From a virus, in the IMG/VR virus record IMGVR_UViG_3300047560_000468, positions 1 to 39,947 of that record: a DNA stretch of 39,947 nt; one strand, 5' to 3'. Shown here one piece after another: positions 1-39,516 of the stretch. Below the pieces are notes generated by a model. It was not told the origin of the DNA and ran no database searches. It saw nothing but the letters and a program-made list of their open reading frames with translations. Numbering within the stretch: the first letter of the stretch is position 1; the number at the start of each line of letters is the position of its first letter. The position numbers and the translations under genes are program-made.

Positions 1-156
1 AAATCTTGGTTTGAACCTTGTAAATAACGCAAGTAACCTGTCAGGAGTTTTGTTTAGCACTAATGCCGCACCAGCAACTTCGTACACCTATATCAAGGGC
101 GATGGTCGTTCTAGCGGCTTTATTACGTTGTCAACAAACGACACCGAGCGTATGCG
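1..156. repeat. Terminal direct repeat, copy 1 (matches 38847-39002)
   Basis: Bases 1-127 are identical to 38847-38973. Position 128 differs (T versus C, a silent Leu change), 129-156 match again, and the two copies then diverge. The repeat lies inside tail-fibre coding sequence and is read in the same frame in both copies. An exact 127-nt overlap at a contig end is what a de Bruijn assembler with k=127 leaves at a branch point, so this probably marks a circle closure with two alternative continuations. That origin is inference; the identity is seen directly. Confidence 0.93.
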
Positions 157-1378
157 CCTCGACTCCTCCGGCAACCTCGGCTTGGGGGTTACGCCGAGTG
201 CGTGGTTTAGCGGCGCAAAAGTAATGCAGTTAGGACTTGCAGGGGCTTTCTATGCCAATACTGGCGTTACCCAGTTTCAAGTGCTGAACAATACGCTAAT
301 CAATGCTAGCGGTAATGAAGTTTATTTAAATAACGGCTATGCACAAAAGTACGCGCTAAACAATTCTGGAGAATTTACTTGGTTTAGAGCCGCCTCGGGC
401 ACAGCAGGAAACGCCATCACCTTCACTCAGGCGATGACGCTGGATGCGAGTGGGCGACTGTTGCTTGGAACTACAACTGGCTCTGAGAATTTAATCGTAT
501 CTGCCGCAAACGCCAGACAAAGAATTTCAAGCACAACCACTACAAATGCAGTTGCCACCTTGTATGGAAATTCCAACAACTACTTCTATGTTGGCAGGGA
601 TGACAGCGGTGGTGGATACTTTAATTCAGGCTCTGCGTATGCGGCCTGTCTGTATTCTGAAGGCGCATATCCGATGGTGTTCTTTACCAACGCCACCGAA
701 CGGATGCGTATTGACTCCAGCGGGAATTTGCTGGTGGGGAAAACAAGCACTTCGTTTTCAACTGCTGGTTGTCGTATTCTTCCGGAGGGAAGTGTTAATG
801 CGGTTGCATCAAATCGTGAGGTGATAGCCGTAAATAGACTTAATTCAGATGGAAATCTTGTTGAGTTTTATCAAGACACAACTTTAGAAGGCTCTATCTC
901 AGTATCAGGCACAACTGTTTCATACAACGGCGGTCATTTGGCTCGTTATGCACAGACTACGGCTGCCAAAGACGAATCGTTGGTCAAGGGAACTGTACTG
1001 TCCAACTTGGATGACATGAACACCTACACAGACGCTGAAGGCAACGCTGTCGATAACGAACAGCTTAACAAAGTGAAAGTCTCTGATGTTGAAGGTGATG
1101 TCAATGTTGCTGGCGTGTTTGTTAACTGGTCTTTTGACGAGCAACATAATGTAGACGAAATTAACATGGCAATGACTGGTGACATGATTATCCGCATCGC
1201 TCAAGGAACTACTGTTTCCCGTGGTGATTTGTTGATGTCTGCTGGTGACGGTACTGCCAAGCCACAAGGTGATGACATCGTCAGAGCCAAGACAATCGCC
1301 AAAGTAACTTCAACCCATGTAACTTGCACATACGAAGATGGTTCTTACTGTGTGCCTTGCGTTTTGATGGCTTGCTAA
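2..1378 (+). CDS. Tail fibre, C-terminal part (allele 1), 5' partial
   Basis: The reading frame is open from the first full codon, so this is the distal part of a larger protein; a TTG at position 11 is not a credible start. The N-terminal residues match an internal stretch of the fibre encoded at 37039-39516. Beads follow with DSSGNLGLGVTPSAW and AASGTAGNAITFTQAM motifs, typical of beta-rich phage fibre shafts. The last ~140 residues (from about GGHLARYAQT to VPCVLMAC) form a distinct C-terminal domain unlike the S74-type domain of the other allele; it may be a trimerisation or chaperone tip, which is inferred. Joined to 37039-38846 it gives a 1061-aa fibre in frame. It should bind the host receptor. 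The partner gene follows after 10 nt. Confidence 0.9.
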   Translation, partial: NLGLNLVNNASNLSGVLFSTNAAPATSYTYIKGDGRSSGFITLSTNDTERMRLDSSGNLGLGVTPSAWFSGAKVMQLGLAGAFYANTGVTQFQVLNNTLINASGNEVYLNNGYAQKYALNNSGEFTWFRAASGTAGNAITFTQAMTLDASGRLLLGTTTGSENLIVSAANARQRISSTTTTNAVATLYGNSNNYFYVGRDDSGGGYFNSGSAYAACLYSEGAYPMVFFTNATERMRIDSSGNLLVGKTSTSFSTAGCRILPEGSVNAVASNREVIAVNRLNSDGNLVEFYQDTTLEGSISVSGTTVSYNGGHLARYAQTTAAKDESLVKGTVLSNLDDMNTYTDAEGNAVDNEQLNKVKVSDVEGDVNVAGVFVNWSFDEQHNVDEINMAMTGDMIIRIAQGTTVSRGDLLMSAGDGTAKPQGDDIVRAKTIAKVTSTHVTCTYEDGSYCVPCVLMAC

Positions 1379-1388
1379 AAGGAATACT

Positions 1389-1682
1389 ATGACAATCACA
1401 TGGAAAATCAATAACCTAGAACGCCAAACCTCTGATGGTCTTGTAACAGTAGTGCATTGGGGTGCTTCAGCCGTAGATGGTGACTATTCAGCATCTATTG
1501 TGAACACACAAGCCCTAGAGCGTGGGCAGTCATTTGTAAGCTACGACACCCTGACTGAAGAAACAGTCTTGGGTTGGTTGTGGGAAAAGATTGACAAGGC
1601 TGCTACGGAAGCCGCAGTGACCGCACAGATTGAGGCTCAGAAAAACCCTGTTCAGGCTTCAGGAACTCCTTGGAGCAACTGA
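1389..1682 (+). CDS. Small fibre-associated protein, paralogue of 39519-39818
   Basis: A 97-aa protein encoded directly after the fibre. It is clearly paralogous to the 99-aa product of 39519-39818: both start MTITW, have a variable middle, and share ETVLGW and AQIEAQKNPVQA near the end. A family of this type (I believe DUF7936) is common next to phage tail-fibre genes; no function is established that I can name. Position suggests a fibre chaperone or tip partner matched to the preceding fibre allele, which is inference. The DNA near its 3' end (1602-1665) is almost identical to 39735-39798, so it is also a potential recombination patch. The stop overlaps the next ATG by one base. Confidence 0.85.
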   Translation: MTITWKINNLERQTSDGLVTVVHWGASAVDGDYSASIVNTQALERGQSFVSYDTLTEETVLGWLWEKIDKAATEAAVTAQIEAQKNPVQASGTPWSN

Positions 1683-1906
1683 TGGACGAGGTAAGCCATG
1701 CTCAAATTTATGAGAGGCTAATAGCTGTTGAGAACAAAGTGGATGAAGTGGATAAAAACACTAGACACATTGTTAATGCTTTTGAAGCTTTAGATGGGGC
1801 CTTTACTGTTTTAGAATGGATTGCTAAAGCTGCTAAACCTATCCTCTGGATTGGAGCACTTATCACTGCAATGAGTGCTTTTTGGGGGATGAGAAATAAT
1901 GATTGA
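1682..1906 (+). CDS. Small C-terminal-anchored membrane protein, lysis cassette
   Basis: 74 aa. ATG at 1682 is chosen over an upstream in-frame TTG at 1670 because GGAG lies 6 nt before it and the ATG overlaps the previous stop. The first ~45 residues are soluble and heptad-like (IYERLIAVENKVDEVDKNT). One hydrophobic segment follows (ILWIGALITAMSAFW) near the C-terminus. The arrangement resembles XhlA-type or other accessory holin proteins, and the position at the head of a membrane-protein cluster ending in an endolysin supports a lysis role. It overlaps the next gene by 8 nt. Confidence 0.75.
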   Translation: MDEVSHAQIYERLIAVENKVDEVDKNTRHIVNAFEALDGAFTVLEWIAKAAKPILWIGALITAMSAFWGMRNND

Positions 1907-2390
1907 TCCAGTAAGTGCATTAGCAGCAGTTCAGTCTGCTGTTGCTTTAATTAAGAAAGCATCAGAAACTGTAGATGATGTAGCCTCTTTAGGGCCACTG
2001 ATTGGAAAGTATTTTGATGCTAAATCCACTGCCACTAAAGCTGCAAAAGAAGCTAAGAAGGCTGGTGGTTCTAACATGGGCAAAGCTATAGAGATTGAAC
2101 TTGCTCTAAAGCAACAAGCTGACTTTGAGAAAGAGCTTCAAGGATTGTTCTTTGCCACTAATAACATGGATGTTTGGCAGAATATTATGAAGCGAGTAGC
2201 TGAGATGAATGCTGCTGATGCTGAACAGGCTAAGAAAGATGCAATTTCAGAGGCAATAAGAAAAAGAAAAGAACAAGAACTTAATGAGATTTTTATTGTT
2301 GTTGGTGTAGTTCTTGTATCCTTGATCTTTTTAGGGTGGGCTGGGTATGAAGCTTTGACATTCTGTCAGAGTGCGAGGTGTGGTAGATGA
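1899..2390 (+). CDS. Putative membrane protein with helical domain, lysis region
   Basis: 163 aa. It begins with an Ala-rich amphipathic helix (DPVSALAAVQSAVALIKKAS) and continues as a Lys/Glu/Ala-rich coiled-coil-like region. A single membrane span lies at about residues 131-152 (IFIVVGVVLVSLIFLGW), followed by a short tail with two cysteines. I do not recognise a named family. Its place between a small TM protein and the holin/endolysin pair makes a lysis accessory or spanin-like role possible, but no signal peptide or lipobox is visible. The stop overlaps the next small gene as ATGA. Confidence 0.75.
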   Translation: MIDPVSALAAVQSAVALIKKASETVDDVASLGPLIGKYFDAKSTATKAAKEAKKAGGSNMGKAIEIELALKQQADFEKELQGLFFATNNMDVWQNIMKRVAEMNAADAEQAKKDAISEAIRKRKEQELNEIFIVVGVVLVSLIFLGWAGYEALTFCQSARCGR

Positions 2391-2554
2391 GATTTAAAGA
2401 CTTTGTAACAAATGAAATGATACAAGGTTTTAAACAATGGATTAAACTTGCTTGTTATGGACTTGCTTTGATTTGGTTGCTTGATCTTCTTCCAAAGCTT
2501 CCAGATGAATTTGCTAAACCCATAGCAGATAAACTTGTAGACTTGGTAAAATAA
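2387..2554 (+). CDS. 55-aa single-span membrane protein, lysis cassette
   Basis: A short gene tightly packed between its neighbours: ATG at 2387 overlaps the upstream stop as ATGA, and the stop ends one base before the next ATG. The protein has a charged start (MRFKDFVTNEM) and one hydrophobic stretch (LACYGLALIWLLDLL, about residues 20-34), then an amphipathic C-terminus. Size and topology fit a pinholin, antiholin or other small lysis protein. No family is recognised. Translational coupling and the absence of spare DNA argue that it is real. Confidence 0.65.
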   Translation: MRFKDFVTNEMIQGFKQWIKLACYGLALIWLLDLLPKLPDEFAKPIADKLVDLVK

Positions 2555-2555
2555 T

Positions 2556-3059
2556 ATGTTAACTCTTCTTTCTTCTCTTCTTTCATTTTTAGCTGGTGGT
2601 CTTCCTAAAGTTCTTGACATGATTCAAGACAAAGGAGATAAAAAGCATGAGCTAGCTTTAGCTCAAATGCAGGTAGAGCGTGAGCTTGCTCTTAAGAAAG
2701 CTGGATTTGAAATTCAAGAACGTATAGAACACATTCAAACTGAACAACTTCAGATTACAGCTAATGTTGATATGGCTGGTATTGCCTTACAAGAAAGACA
2801 GGCTTTATATAACCACGATATTGAGATTGGTAAAGGGGCTTCTCAATGGGTAATTGATGCTAGGGCTTTTACTCGTAGTGCCATTACCTATGGTATGTAT
2901 GTTATGTTTATGTTTGTAGAAGTGTTTGGCTTCTTATACGCATGGAAAACTGGTGTAGATTTTACTGTTGCTCTTGATTTGCTGTGGGATGATGACACTC
3001 AACTTATCTGGTCTTCAATTGTAAGCTTCTGGTTTGGTACTCAAGCCTTTAAGAAATGA
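2556..3059 (+). CDS. Putative holin
   Basis: 167 aa. The hydrophobic N-terminus (LTLLSSLLSFLAGGLP) is followed by a long charged helix (residues ~25-90, ELALAQMQVERELALKKAG), then two hydrophobic segments (AITYGMYVMFMFVEVFGFLY and IWSSIVSFWFGTQAF). This order matches the three-TM holin-like proteins of phages and gene-transfer agents. It probably makes the membrane lesion that lets the downstream endolysin reach the wall. Its stop overlaps the endolysin start (ATGA), the usual holin-endolysin coupling. Confidence 0.75.
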   Translation: MLTLLSSLLSFLAGGLPKVLDMIQDKGDKKHELALAQMQVERELALKKAGFEIQERIEHIQTEQLQITANVDMAGIALQERQALYNHDIEIGKGASQWVIDARAFTRSAITYGMYVMFMFVEVFGFLYAWKTGVDFTVALDLLWDDDTQLIWSSIVSFWFGTQAFKK

Positions 3060-3535
3060 TTAGCGAGAAGGCTTTAAACACAATTAAACACCATGAGGGT
3101 GTACGAGTAAAGGCTTATAGGTGTCCTGCTCGTTTATGGACTATTGGTGTTGGTCATGTAATTGATCAGAACCATATTAAAGTTCCTTTTGAACAACGGC
3201 TATCTCTGTCAATTCCTGAAGGTTGGGACAGAACACTTAGCATGGAGGAAGTAGATGAGATTCTCAGGAAAGACCTTGAAGGATTTGTTAGAGGCACTAT
3301 ACGGATGTGCCATAACACTGCTAACAATCAAGGCCACTTGGACTGCCTTGTTTCTTTTGCCTTCAATGTAGGACTAGGAAATCTTCAAAGAAGTACAGTG
3401 AGGCAAAAATACAACAGGGGAGATGTACAAGGTGCTGCGGATGCCCTGATGGACTGGACTAAAGCTGGAGGGAAGATTCTTCCTGGTTTAGTGAAGAGAA
3501 GACAAGACGAACGTAACCTTATGTTAGGAGTATGA
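3056..3535 (+). CDS. Endolysin, T4-lysozyme family (GH24)
   Basis: 159 aa, the usual length for the family. The catalytic triad pattern is seen as E14-8aa-C23-5aa-T29 (HHEGVRVKAYR, then C, then PARLWT), with Cys in the place where T4 lysozyme has Asp; this E-C-T variant is known among phage lysozymes. Further family motifs are TIGVGH and LVSFAFNVGLGN. It should cleave the MurNAc-GlcNAc bond of peptidoglycan at the end of infection. No signal peptide or SAR segment is visible, so export probably depends on the upstream holin. Confidence 0.93.
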   Translation: MISEKALNTIKHHEGVRVKAYRCPARLWTIGVGHVIDQNHIKVPFEQRLSLSIPEGWDRTLSMEEVDEILRKDLEGFVRGTIRMCHNTANNQGHLDCLVSFAFNVGLGNLQRSTVRQKYNRGDVQGAADALMDWTKAGGKILPGLVKRRQDERNLMLGV

Positions 3536-4797: not shown

Positions 4798-6386
4798 AAG
4801 AATTACAAAGCGCATCTGTAGCAGCTCCTGGTTTCTTTGGGCTTAACACCCAAGAGAGTGGAGCTTTGCTGTCTGATGGATTTGCTTTGAGAGCTTCCAA
4901 CTGTGTCATTGACAAGTATGGAAGACTTGGTGCTCGTAAGGGATGGACTATGCGTACTACCTCTGGAAGCACTGCTCTTTCTGGAAATCCTATCAGAAGT
5001 ATTTTTGAATATTTAAACTCTGATGGTAGTCTTGACTACATCAGTGCTGGCAATAATAAAATCTTTAGAAACGGCATTGGTAGTTCTTTAGTGGATATGA
5101 CTCCTACAATGACTATCACTGCAAGTAATTGGCAGATGGCTTCATTAGCCAATCATTGCTTAATGGTTCAACAAGGACATGAACCTGTATTATTTACTCG
5201 TGAGACTGGTTCTCCTGTTTGTGCAAAACTTGTTAGTCACACTGGACATGGTGGATTTACTTCTCCTATTTTTGGTACGGGTGTAACTAATGGTCCTAAT
5301 TGTGTATTAGCAGCTTATGGGCGTTTTTGGGTAGCTCGTAGTGATAACAATAAAACTACTCTATATTGGAGTACTGATATTGCTGATGCAAGCTTTCCCA
5401 CTTTTGACACTGGAGCTGCAAGCACTGCGGGAAGCATGAACCTTAATGCTAAGCTTCCTAATAACTCAGATGAAATTACTGGCCTTGCTGCACACAATGG
5501 ATACATTATTGTATTTTTAAGAAATAACATCATTGTCCTCCGAGGTAATGATGACAACTTCAGCAATCCAACTACAATGTATGTTGATGATGTGATTCCT
5601 GGAGTTGGTTGTGTTGCTAGAGATAGCATTCAAAAAGTAGGTAATGATATTCTTTTCTTAACACAATCTGGTGTTAGAAGTCTTGGGCGTACAGTTCAGG
5701 AAAAGAGTATGCCAATGACTGACATCTCTAAGAATGTTAGAGATGACTTATATGCTTACTTTGCTAATTCTAATGTTAATGAAATTCGTAGTTGTTTCTC
5801 TCAAAAGAATGCGTTTTATTTGTTAAGCTTTCCTAGCACAAACACTAATGTAGTTTATTGTTTTGATATGAGAGCTCCTTTAGAAAATGGAGCAGCTAGA
5901 GTTACTTCTTGGGATAGTTATCAAGCTTATGCCTTCTCTTCCAATAGAGATGGTTCTATTTATATTGGAAAGCCAAATGGAATTGCTGAATATTATGGAT
6001 ATACAGACAATGGCTCAAGCTATCCTTTTATCTATTACACTACATACTTTGATTTTCAACAACCAACAACTAACAAAATTGTTAAGAAAGTTGGAATTGT
6101 AATGATTGGTGGAGGTGGACAGCAGATTGTCTTGAAGCTTGGCTTTGATTATCAAGATAGTTATGATAGCTTTCCAGCAAGTTTAAGTACTAGAACTCCA
6201 GCAGAATATAATATTGCTGAGTATAACATTGGAGAATATTCTTCTGGTGTCTTTGTTGATACGCTTAACACTCCTCTTGGTGGACAAGGTAAAGTAGTGC
6301 AGATGGGTTTTGAAGCTACAGTGAGTGGTGCTCCATTGAGCATTCAAAAGATGGATATATTTACTAAACTGGGACGGAGTTACTAA
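4794..6386 (+). CDS. Tail tubular protein B-like (tail nozzle)
   Basis: 530 aa from ATG 4794 (MKELQSASVAAPGFFGLNTQ). The TTG 12 nt upstream is ignored because ATG 4794 overlaps the upstream stop as ATGA. The N-terminal phrase APGFFGLNTQESG, with a strand-rich body of repeated aromatic/glycine beta segments (YGRFWVARSDNNKTTLYWS), matches nozzle proteins of T7-like podoviruses. It is shorter than T7 gp12 (794 aa) but within the range of this group. It forms the distal tail tube through which DNA exits. The stop abuts the next ATG (TAATG). Confidence 0.85.
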   Translation: MKELQSASVAAPGFFGLNTQESGALLSDGFALRASNCVIDKYGRLGARKGWTMRTTSGSTALSGNPIRSIFEYLNSDGSLDYISAGNNKIFRNGIGSSLVDMTPTMTITASNWQMASLANHCLMVQQGHEPVLFTRETGSPVCAKLVSHTGHGGFTSPIFGTGVTNGPNCVLAAYGRFWVARSDNNKTTLYWSTDIADASFPTFDTGAASTAGSMNLNAKLPNNSDEITGLAAHNGYIIVFLRNNIIVLRGNDDNFSNPTTMYVDDVIPGVGCVARDSIQKVGNDILFLTQSGVRSLGRTVQEKSMPMTDISKNVRDDLYAYFANSNVNEIRSCFSQKNAFYLLSFPSTNTNVVYCFDMRAPLENGAARVTSWDSYQAYAFSSNRDGSIYIGKPNGIAEYYGYTDNGSSYPFIYYTTYFDFQQPTTNKIVKKVGIVMIGGGGQQIVLKLGFDYQDSYDSFPASLSTRTPAEYNIAEYNIGEYSSGVFVDTLNTPLGGQGKVVQMGFEATVSGAPLSIQKMDIFTKLGRSY

Positions 6387-7003
6387 TGAGTGACTATTCT
6401 AAATTAACAAATTTTGCTGTTAAAGATGGCTATACTTCTGGCACTCCTGCTAAAGTAATTAAAGGCACTGAACTTGATGATGAGTTTAATGCTATTGCAA
6501 CTGCTGTAGCTACTAAATATGATAGTGGAGATAGCACTGAATTAAGAAGTCTCGTGGGTGCTTTGTTGTATCCAGTCGGTTCTATTTATATCAATGCTAC
6601 TAATAGTGCAAATCCTTCTTCTTTGTTAGGATTTGGTACTTGGACTGCTTTTGGTGCTGGTAGAGTTCCTGTTGGTTTTGATGCTACTGATTCTTTATTT
6701 GATTCTGCTGAAGAAACAGGTGGTTCAAAAGACGCAACAGTTGTGTCACACTCACATACTGCTACTTCTACTTCTTCTGTAACTGACCCAGGCCACAATC
6801 ATACATACTATTTAAAAACGGGAACTGGTAGTTATCAGTCTGCTGCTGGAAATGAAAATAATGGAGTGAATGCCAATACTTCTACAGCAACTACTGGTAT
6901 TTCTGTATCAACATCGACTACAATTTCATCTGCTGGTTCTTCTGGAACTAATGCAAACCTTCAGCCGTACATTACTGTGTATATGTGGAAGCGCACTGCA
7001 TGA
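6386..7003 (+). CDS. Tail collar / short-fibre tip-like protein
   Basis: 205 aa. The N-terminal ~70 residues look like a virion-attachment domain. YPVGSIYINATNSANPS and LLGFGTWTAFGAGRVPVG then give the signature of phage tail-collar domains. A histidine pair cluster follows (SHSHT ... GHNHT), as in metal-binding trimeric fibre knobs such as T4 gp12, and the protein ends NLQPYITVYMWKRTA, a classic collar-domain end. A minor tail spike or baseplate-like fibre is likely, giving this phage a second potential host-contact protein. It overlaps the next gene by 4 nt. Confidence 0.8.
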   Translation: MSDYSKLTNFAVKDGYTSGTPAKVIKGTELDDEFNAIATAVATKYDSGDSTELRSLVGALLYPVGSIYINATNSANPSSLLGFGTWTAFGAGRVPVGFDATDSLFDSAEETGGSKDATVVSHSHTATSTSSVTDPGHNHTYYLKTGTGSYQSAAGNENNGVNANTSTATTGISVSTSTTISSAGSSGTNANLQPYITVYMWKRTA

Positions 7004-36009: not shown

Positions 36010-36957
36010 ATGGCAACTTCTACTTACCCCACGATGACTGGCGCTGCTGGTCTGACTGAAGCGAGCAACTTCCTCCCTGATTTGTGGAGTGATGAGATTA
36101 TCGCTGCTTATAAAAAGAACCTCGTTCTGGCCCAGTTCGTTCGCAAGATGAGCTTTAAGGGCAAGAAGGGCGATGCTCTGATTATCCCTAACCCCAGCCG
36201 TGGCTTGGCTGCTCAGAACAAAGGTGAGAACACTGCTGTTACTCTCCAAAACCTGAGCCAGTCTGCTATCACTGTTAACCTGAGCCAGCACAAAGAAGTG
36301 TCTTACTTGATTGAAGACATCGTTGAAGTGCAAGCTCTGCCCTCATTGCGTAAGCATTATACCGATGATGCTGGCTATGCGATGGCTAAACAGGTTGATG
36401 ACGATCTGTGGGCTTTGGTTAAGAGCTTGGGCGATGGTGCTGGCTCGTCTTATGTCCACAGCCGTTCCTTCCAGTTTAACACCTCTACTGGTGTTTTGGA
36501 AGCTTATGATGCTGATGGTACTACCGACATTGGTGCTTTCTCTGATGTTGGCTTCCGCAGAGCCATCCAGTATTTGGATGACGCTGACCAGCCGATGGAT
36601 GGGCGTGTGCTGATTGTTCCTCCGAGCACCCGCAACACCTTGAATGGCATTAACCGCTATACCGAGCAAGCCTTTGTTGGCGAAGCTGGTAGCGCTAATA
36701 CCATCCGCAATGGCGAAGTTGGTAATCTGTATGGCATTCCTGTTGTTGTGTCTAGCAACTGCCCCACCCTGGAAACTGGTGTGAAAGGTGCTTTGCTGGC
36801 TCATAAAGACTGGGCTGTTCATGTGGAGCAGATGTCTGTTCGTTCGCAACAGCAGTACAAACAAGAGTACTTGGCTACTCTGTTTACCAGCGATATGTTG
36901 TATGGCACGAAAGTGCTCCGCAGCGATGCTGGCGTGTTGATGGCTGTTGCAGCCTGA
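36010..36957 (+). CDS. Major capsid protein
   Basis: 315 aa: MATSTYPTMTGAAGLTEASN, FVRKMSFKGKKGDALIIPNP, then a HK97-fold-like body with GRVLIVPPSTRNTLNGINRY and GEVGNLYGIPVVVSSNCPTL, typical of podovirus capsid proteins. AAGGAAA precedes the start. The codons are visibly richer in C/G endings than in neighbouring genes, as expected for a very highly expressed gene. A strong terminator follows directly. Confidence 0.92.
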   Translation: MATSTYPTMTGAAGLTEASNFLPDLWSDEIIAAYKKNLVLAQFVRKMSFKGKKGDALIIPNPSRGLAAQNKGENTAVTLQNLSQSAITVNLSQHKEVSYLIEDIVEVQALPSLRKHYTDDAGYAMAKQVDDDLWALVKSLGDGAGSSYVHSRSFQFNTSTGVLEAYDADGTTDIGAFSDVGFRRAIQYLDDADQPMDGRVLIVPPSTRNTLNGINRYTEQAFVGEAGSANTIRNGEVGNLYGIPVVVSSNCPTLETGVKGALLAHKDWAVHVEQMSVRSQQQYKQEYLATLFTSDMLYGTKVLRSDAGVLMAVAA

Positions 36958-37038: not shown

Positions 37039-39516
37039 ATGGCTATTTGGAGAGGAGTGGGTGGCTCTGGCGAGAGCACTAATGACTCCACAGTTCCTAC
37101 AGTAACTGATCTTTTAGTGCAGACAAACGCAGCTAAAACGGATGCTCAAACTGCTGCTACATCTGCTGCATCTTCTGCTACTGCTGCTTCTGGAAGTGCT
37201 TCAAGTGCAGCTTCTTCTTCAACTACGGCTTCTACACAAGCCACTAATGCAGCTTCTTCTGCAAGTGCTGCTTCAACTTCAGCAAGTAATGCAGCTTCTT
37301 CTGCTACTTCTGCTGCATCCTCTGCAACTACTGCAACTACTAAAGCTTCTGAAGCGTCTACCTCTGCTACTAATGCAGCATCCAGTGCTACGTCTGCTGC
37401 GTCTTCTGCTACTACTGCTACAACTAAAGCTTCAGAAGCTTCTACTTCTGCTACAAATGCGGCCTCTTCTGCGACTTCTGCTGCGAGTTCGGCAAGCACA
37501 GCTACGACTCAGGCAAGCAATGCAGCTTCTAGTGCAACTTCTGCGGCTGCCGCTCAGAGTGCTGCTGAAACTGCACGAGATCAAACCTTAGCTGCCTTTG
37601 ATAGCTTTGATGATCGTTATCTGGGACAGAAGAGCACTGCTCCTACTGTGGACAATGATGGCAATGCTTTGGTTGCTGGTGCTTTGTATTTCAACACCAC
37701 AACTAATGAGATGAAGGTGTATGACGGTACTCAGTGGTTGAGTGCCTATGCTTCTTTGTCTGGTGCTCTGTTAGCTACGAACAACCTTAGTGATTTGAAC
37801 AATGTAGCCACTGCTAGAACCAATCTTGGTTTAGGCACTGCAGCTACTACCAATGCCTCTAGTTATGTTGCTGTCACTGGTGACCAAACTGTTGCTGGCA
37901 TTAAGACCTTCAGCAGCAATCCTGTGCTCTCTGGCGGCACTGCCAACGGAGTGCTGTATCTCAACGGCTCTAAAGTTGCAACGAGTGGGTCTGCGCTGAC
38001 TTTTGATGGGACAACAGTTGCAAACATTAACAGCGATGGAACTGGGTTTTCCACGCAAAATGCCGCATCTAACTTTTCAATCTTGCGACTTGGAACTGAT
38101 AGCGTAAACGGCTATGCGTTTTTCCAAAGTGGCAAGAGTGGAACAGGCACAACTTTGCCTTTTTCGTGGAGGCAAGACTCCAGCGAGTTAATGCGCCTGA
38201 CCAGCACAGGGCTGGGTATTGGGACGAGTTCGCCTTCTTATAAGTTGGATGTCTACGGAGCGACTGGTGTTGTTTCTAGATTCAAATCGTCCGGCAATTA
38301 CGCAGTAGTGGTCGCAGATAACAGCAATACTACTGGTGGTGGTTCTTTTTCTGCAAGACAAAATGGTACTTCATACGCCATTTTTGGCGTTAGCGGAGCC
38401 ATTCAAGGCGACACAAGCACTGACGCCGCGATTTTGGCAGACGGCGCAGGCAAGGGCATTAATTTTTACACCAACGGTTCTCCGACTGTAAAAGCCACCC
38501 TCGACTCCTCCGGCAACCTTGGATTAGGTGTTACTCCTAGTGCTTGGAATACCCTGACAACAATGCAAATCAAAAACGCATCGTTCTCAGGATATGGCAA
38601 CCATTCATACACAATGGCAAATACTTTCTATCAAACAGGATGGAAATACATTGCGTCTGAATATGCTTTGCAGTATTACCAAAACGCTACTGCTGGCTCT
38701 CACGTTTGGTACAACGCCGCCTCCGGCACAGCAGGAAACGCCATCACCTTCACTCAGGCGATGACGCTGGATGCTAGTGGTTCATTAGGTATTGGTGTAA
38801 CTTCAGTACCAGAAGCATTGACTGTTAAGCCAAACGGAACCGGCGCAAATCTTGGTTTGAACCTTGTAAATAACGCAAGTAACCTGTCAGGAGTTTTGTT
38901 TAGCACTAATGCCGCACCAGCAACTTCGTACACCTATATCAAGGGCGATGGTCGTTCTAGCGGCTTTATTACGCTGTCAACAAACGACACCGAGCGTATG
39001 CGTATCGACTCCAGCGGTAACGTGCTGGTGGGGACTACAAGCGTCAACTTTACTGGAAGCGGCCTCACTTTATCTAGTAATGCTGGAACTACAAAGTGGC
39101 TTGTTGGCCCTTACTCTGGGGCTAGTGGCCAATTTTATGTTTGTTCTAGTAGTTCTACGGGTGTTTATTTAAGTAGCACAAGCGCAACATCTTGGTCTTC
39201 AAATTCTGACTTTAATCTGAAAACAGATTTGGTTGCTATTGAGAACGCAGCAGAAAAAGTAGCATCGCTTCGTGCGGTTACTGGTCGTTATAAAACAGAC
39301 CCTGAAGGTACAAGCAGAGCTTTCTTGATTGCTCAAGATGTTCAAGCCGTGTTGCCAGAGGCTGTTGCGCCTACAACCATGTATGACGGAACAGAAGTTC
39401 TTGGTCTTGCTTACACCGAAGTCATCCCACTTTTGGTTGCCGCAATTAAAGAACAACAAGCCATCATTGAACAACTCACCAGCCGTATTGCGGCACTTGA
39501 AACGAAAGGAGCCTGA
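37039..39516 (+). CDS. Tail fibre with S74-type chaperone tip (allele 2)
   Basis: 825 aa, AAGGAGA upstream. Residues 1-35 are a probable virion anchor. Residues ~35-185 are Ala/Ser/Thr-rich with heptad character, including a 28-residue repeat (around SATTATTKASEASTSATNAA) used twice. DDRYLGQKS and GALYFNTTTNEMKVYDGTQW mark a common fibre joint domain. Beads with DSSGNLGLGVTPSAW follow. The last ~110 residues (SNSDFNLKTDLVAIENAAEK ... TSRAFLIAQDVQAVLPEA) are the endosialidase-type intramolecular chaperone (Peptidase_S74), which folds the trimer and may cut itself off. 38847-39002 repeats window positions 1-156. Confidence 0.93.
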   Translation: MAIWRGVGGSGESTNDSTVPTVTDLLVQTNAAKTDAQTAATSAASSATAASGSASSAASSSTTASTQATNAASSASAASTSASNAASSATSAASSATTATTKASEASTSATNAASSATSAASSATTATTKASEASTSATNAASSATSAASSASTATTQASNAASSATSAAAAQSAAETARDQTLAAFDSFDDRYLGQKSTAPTVDNDGNALVAGALYFNTTTNEMKVYDGTQWLSAYASLSGALLATNNLSDLNNVATARTNLGLGTAATTNASSYVAVTGDQTVAGIKTFSSNPVLSGGTANGVLYLNGSKVATSGSALTFDGTTVANINSDGTGFSTQNAASNFSILRLGTDSVNGYAFFQSGKSGTGTTLPFSWRQDSSELMRLTSTGLGIGTSSPSYKLDVYGATGVVSRFKSSGNYAVVVADNSNTTGGGSFSARQNGTSYAIFGVSGAIQGDTSTDAAILADGAGKGINFYTNGSPTVKATLDSSGNLGLGVTPSAWNTLTTMQIKNASFSGYGNHSYTMANTFYQTGWKYIASEYALQYYQNATAGSHVWYNAASGTAGNAITFTQAMTLDASGSLGIGVTSVPEALTVKPNGTGANLGLNLVNNASNLSGVLFSTNAAPATSYTYIKGDGRSSGFITLSTNDTERMRIDSSGNVLVGTTSVNFTGSGLTLSSNAGTTKWLVGPYSGASGQFYVCSSSSTGVYLSSTSATSWSSNSDFNLKTDLVAIENAAEKVASLRAVTGRYKTDPEGTSRAFLIAQDVQAVLPEAVAPTTMYDGTEVLGLAYTEVIPLLVAAIKEQQAIIEQLTSRIAALETKGA
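38847..39002. repeat. Direct repeat, copy 2 (matches 1-156)
   Basis: Lies in the fibre gene. Up to 38973 it is identical to the window start; 38974 is the first difference. After 39002 the two continuations encode different fibre tips. If 38846 is joined to 1 the fibre frame continues without shift (1808 + 1378 nt is divisible by three). Confidence 0.93.

Follow-up and report, generated by a model that had tools for sequence, protein, structure and literature searches.

What does it mean when the record of a phage carries two different ends for a single tail fibre? The question is raised by IMGVR_UViG_3300047560_000468, an IMG/VR record of a virus, 39,947 bases long, which in its entirety is the window analysed here. 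Its bases 1-127 are exactly equal to 38847-38973, a match between contig start and contig interior that is far above chance, and the identity is broken at base 128. The shared stretch is read in the same frame by the fibre ORF 37039-39516 (825 aa) and by ORF 2-1378, which encodes 458 aa, is open on its 5' side and has the C-terminus ...SYCVPCVLMAC. The mismatch at base 128 is TTG/CTG, with Leu in both, and bases 129-156 are again identical (28 bases); the true divergence of the two branches begins at about 157, within an ERMR(I/L)DSSG motif. We refer to the continuation of the internal copy as branch a with tip A, and to that of the contig-start copy as branch b with tip B (Table 1).

Table 1. 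Features of the fibre locus and its two branches; positions are those of the window.
Feature	Position	Strand	Basis
Major capsid protein (MCP), upstream border of the fibre slot	36010..36957	+	PHROG major head protein; relatives 84-96% identical
Fibre stem up to the branch vertex: MAIWRG adaptor, Ala/Ser/Thr-rich repeats, tip-proximal modules	37039..38973	+	Translation; PHROG tail fibre matches; adaptor common to relatives
Putative branch k-mer, internal copy	38847..38973	+	Identical to 1-127, next base mismatched
Putative branch k-mer, contig-start copy	1..127	+	Sequence identity
Branch a, S74 tip	38974..39516	+	Pfam S74 residues 723-776 (39205-39366); Ser723, Lys728
Branch a, DUF7936 gene, 99 aa	39519..39818	+	PF25590, 91.5 bits
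Branch a, start of small gene (MGEKKTTPVV...), truncated at the contig end	39866..39947	+	About 70 aa in relatives, mostly just before lysis genes
Branch b, tip B	128..1378	+	Terminal module ~824-1375, ends VPCVLMAC
Branch b, DUF7936 gene, 97 aa	1389..1682	+	PF25590, 95.7 bits
Small gene with hydrophobic C-terminal stretch, opens the lysis block after branch b	1682..1906	+	Placed before 1899 as in L136, L132
Conserved downstream genes 1899, 2556 and endolysin 3056-3535	1899..3535	+	PHROG endolysin; order as in G004, G007

A de Bruijn assembler working at k=127 leaves, at a vertex with two continuations, an exact 127-base overlap that is broken at base 128. Because the overlap in the window is exactly 127 bases long, it points to a branch of the assembly graph at k=127 rather than to a biological repeat, a reading based on this sequence and on the exact 127-base end repeat of a circular relative, G017; the end repeats of G001 and G010 measure 123. 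Circular permutation or a genuine terminal repeat was considered and rejected, because 974 bases separate the second copy from the contig end, and a length of 127 is that of an assembler k. A literature search retrieved no paper on 127-base contig overlaps. In addition, a 32-mer from the shared stretch had no exact match in other IMG/VR records; thus the stretch is not a common sequence, and there is no sister contig that would resolve the junction.

Joining 1-38973 at the overlap yields a 38,846-bp circle with one fibre slot and leaves over a branch of 974 bases, which holds the S74 tip, a second DUF7936 gene and the start of the small gene. The circle runs through terminase, portal, scaffold, capsid, fibre slot, lysis genes, gene 3776, tail genes and internal proteins to a replication block on the opposite strand, an order that agrees, small moves excepted, with those of G001, which is 39.9 kb long with an end repeat of 123, and of G003, which is 38.6 kb long with an end repeat of 22. 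It closes without the loss of any core gene, and its gene order is that of relatives of 38.6-39.9 kb. Its fibre, made of stem and tip B, is 1061 aa long without a frame break and is followed by DUF7936 and the lysis genes, and the slot between MCP and tailA spans about 6.0 kb, within the 0.4-8.6 kb seen in 34 relative loci, some of which come from the same record. Within the contig, branch a is a dead end with no return to the circle. The small gene that opens the lysis block may have a holin-like function. The phage belongs to an uncultured clade with many environmental members; the closest isolates to its capsid protein 36010-36957, Anabaena phage A-4L and Leptolyngbya phage LPP-2, share about 28-32% identity. 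The fibre slot can move in this clade, since L136 (G004), a close relative with a terminase 96% identical, lacks a fibre gene after the capsid and has fibre-like genes between portal and scaffold instead.

The two C-termini are indeed different, as a preliminary description of this locus had stated: ORF 37039-39516 ends in a Peptidase_S74 domain (PF13884, E 9e-9, residues 723-776), whereas ORF 2-1378, ending VPCVLMAC, has no match in Pfam. That description had also placed both tips in frame on one shaft; the frames do agree over the 1061 aa, but the contig itself attaches only the S74 tip to the stem, and tip B would be joined to it via the 127-base overlap. The S74 assignment is supported by the score (35.9 bits against a cut-off of 22) and by the C-terminal position (residues 723-776 of 825). 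Moreover, the Ser-Lys pair is intact, Ser723 and Lys728 lying five residues apart, and the dyads S911/K916 (endoNF) and S587/K592 have the same spacing, which was shown to be essential in endoNF and MyRF (PMC8326128). Because the score exceeds the cut-off and both residues are kept, tip A is likely to cleave itself before Ser723.

Each branch carries its own DUF7936 gene, and this bears on whether the tips belong to one genome or to two. DUF7936, scored over the cut-off, is single-copy in all 80 other records that have it (31/31 viral and 49/49 phage records), and two copies occur only in the window. In 10 relative loci the small gene of branch a comes after the final fibre or chaperone gene; lysis or tail genes follow it in most of them, and a fibre tip lies downstream of it in none of the 10. 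In L013 the adaptor, S74 tip, DUF7936 and small gene stand in the order of branch a, with tailA within 1.5 kb, so branch a would suffice by itself to occupy the slot taken by branch b. Since DUF7936 is single-copy, no fibre tip follows the small gene and the order in L013 fills the slot, we favour two alleles of one fibre slot, belonging to two strains combined in one contig, as the probable explanation of these sequences. The position of the DUF7936 genes directly behind fibre genes also suggests a role in fibre assembly.

The same observations weigh against a single genome with tandem fibre genes, in which stem, S74 tip, DUF7936 and small gene would be followed by an unassembled second fibre with tip B and DUF7936 and then by the lysis genes, the 127-base repeat having broken the assembly. 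Such an arrangement has precedents among relatives: L025 (7130-10573) is a clear tandem locus in which two S74 fibres are separated by DUF7936 and followed by another small gene, an MGEKK-type gene and lysis genes, and L051, L093, L108 and L112 hold both kinds of tip within one contig. Many tip B proteins also have an N-terminus of their own, and the two tips of the window have further modules in common. Contigs with repeated fibre genes may moreover be under-represented, being broken in assembly. However, the contig already closes as a complete syntenic circle without the unassembled piece, and a tandem slot would exceed about 8 kb, above nearly all relatives. Together with the DUF7936 counts and the gene order behind the small gene, this makes a tandem arrangement unlikely.

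The fibres of relatives are mosaic, in keeping with two alleles of one slot. The MGIFRG/MAIWRG-type adaptor occurs in about 30 relatives with at least 10 different C-termini, many of them unrelated; it is joined to S74 in L126 and L013, and to tip B in the more distant L103. The MCP-tailA slot itself holds S74 tips in G007, L159 and L170, tip B in the circular G017 and other ends elsewhere, i.e. the same genomic slot carries different fibre ends in close relatives. Between modules, 110 ERMR-type motifs are present, spread over 75 of 194 loci. On near-identical phage cores, as many as five coexisting fibre variants have been reported (PMC7468147), and the C-termini of fibres show a marked decrease in coverage (PMC3909814).

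One may argue that this very abundance of mosaic modules in aquatic phages, together with an extension of just 974 bases that ends blindly, fits a false assembly of branch a or of the tip B join, with sequence from a different phage in the sample that has the same 127-base module. We regard this as less likely still than tandem genes: the slot in this phage group holds both tips (S74 in G005 and G007, tip B in G017), the 32-mer of the shared stretch is in no other viral record, and GC content is similar in stem (0.48), branch a (0.47) and branch b (0.46). A phase-variation or diversity-generating switch that swaps the tips within one lineage, which the preliminary description had raised, would account for one 5' end that continues in frame into either of two 3' ends, the pattern of invertible fibre genes, but the genes behind the tip differ between the alleles too. 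Searches of the record for resolvase/invertase, integrase and reverse transcriptase families found none, with positive controls; no 21-mer is shared in reverse complement anywhere in the record, and the inverted repeats present are weak, imperfect and only 14-22 nt long. With neither recombinase or reverse transcriptase nor a convincing inverted repeat, a switch is unsupported and very improbable.

What stands of the preliminary description is therefore its suggestion of tips exchanged as cassettes in a population, in so far as the circle with its branch, the single-copy DUF7936, the synteny and the adaptor with many tips argue best for coexisting variants; the exchanged unit is tip plus DUF7936 (plus the small gene in branch a) rather than the tip alone. 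The search of relatives that it proposed did recover the same adaptor with other tips, and two fixed fibre genes in one genome, its own counter-explanation, are disfavoured, although contigs with two tips exist (L025, L051, L093, L108). That the window is a whole record, that the overlap has k-mer length and that each branch has its own DUF7936 gene are additions to it.

If two alleles are the correct reading, the record would combine two genotypes of a single uncultured tailed phage that occur together and are distinguished by one fibre slot, which lies between the major capsid gene on one side and the lysis and tail genes on the other. Genotype 1 would be the closed circle, with stem, tip B, DUF7936 and lysis genes, and genotype 2 would depart from it inside the fibre gene, with the S74 tip, a DUF7936 gene of its own and the small gene. 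The between-module motif ERMR-[IL]-DSSG would be a natural site of homologous recombination at which tips are swapped in frame. The C-terminal domain of each tip may fold and cap the fibre trimer, S74 acting as a self-cleaving intramolecular chaperone, and the upstream modules, presumably facing the receptor, differ, so the strains may bind different host surfaces. It may also be that the strains have in common just the module surrounding the 127-base stretch and not the complete stem.

Over 200 aa, the terminal module of tip B shares 74-84% identity with 59 other fibres, and its last 148 aa are 78-94% identical in other fibres. It is carried on N-termini that are often unrelated, and a second branch of the family lies at 40-50% identity. 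The module (824-1375; L220-L299) is very common in the fibres of aquatic phages. Pfam and NCBIfam contain no model for it, and matches to PHROGs are weak; Pfam families matched by its members (Glyco_hydro2_C5 and others) were rejected as weak and scattered. Sequence searches of the PDB with both tip B alignments gave chance matches only. The fold predicted with 60 close sequences had a poor pLDDT of 54.6, and addition of the branch at 40-50% identity (73 sequences) gave a model with pLDDT 83.6 and pTM 0.58, which is all-beta. A Foldseek search with the whole model against the PDB returned nothing at E<=0.001. The final 65 residues can be superposed on the C-terminal barrel of phi29 gp12 (3gqh) with Z 6.0 over 53 of 185 residues at 2.6 Å (Foldseek E 9e-3), in a Z range that also fits a common arrangement, and on barrels of other phage base and decoration proteins with Z 4-8, again compatible with a common arrangement. 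A search for Peptidase_G2 (PF11962) in 25 records, the window among them, found nothing at E<=1, with a positive B. subtilis control. The terminal domain is probably a trimerising barrel, and the modelled end of tip B may act like the gp12 cap. More tentatively, and with the balance slightly against it, we propose that the module (about 185 aa, from NRLTxDGxLVxFxQ..EGxISVSGTTVSYN to VPCxLMxC) is a fibre-end domain, unnamed and very widespread in aquatic phages, that serves beside S74 as another general-purpose terminal chaperone or trimerisation cap, is interchangeable with S74 and is often moved between fibres with DUF7936. The 205-aa tail protein 6386-7003 of the window has an N-terminus that heads fibres with tip B in relatives such as L041, L045 and L055, and is a possible second attachment adaptor.

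That mosaic fibre tips coexist in phage populations is already an established principle; of more interest here is a side result, the unnamed terminal domain. A single metagenome contig can record two receptor-binding alleles of a phage population, as an internal overlap of length k with a dangling branch, and such cases could be mined at scale. In addition, a common fibre-end domain with a DUF7936 partner would aid the annotation of fibres in uncultured phages.

Several known systems resemble parts of this locus. Among them are the fibre islands of metaviromes and metagenomes (PMC3909814; PMC7468147), with near-identical cores, coexisting and recombining fibre variants, and a C-terminal part that varies most; here, by contrast, the two variants were caught at the assembly branch of one contig, and coexistence is read from that branch rather than from read recruitment. 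Tip A resembles the S74 chaperone of endosialidases and the T5 L-shaped fibre (PF13884) in its C-terminal position, its score over the cut-off and a Ser-Lys pair five residues apart, but it sits on a different shaft, and its cleavage and trimerisation are predicted from sequence. The modelled end of tip B superposes on the end barrel in the C-terminal fragment of phi29 gp12 (3gqh, 3suc), at the common-arrangement level noted above and without the Peptidase_G2 sequence match. Finally, in the host-recognition modules of Alteromonas phages (PMC10579305), fibre and partner gene likewise travel together between unrelated phages; their partner is a known chaperone, whereas the partner here is DUF7936, a family without known function.
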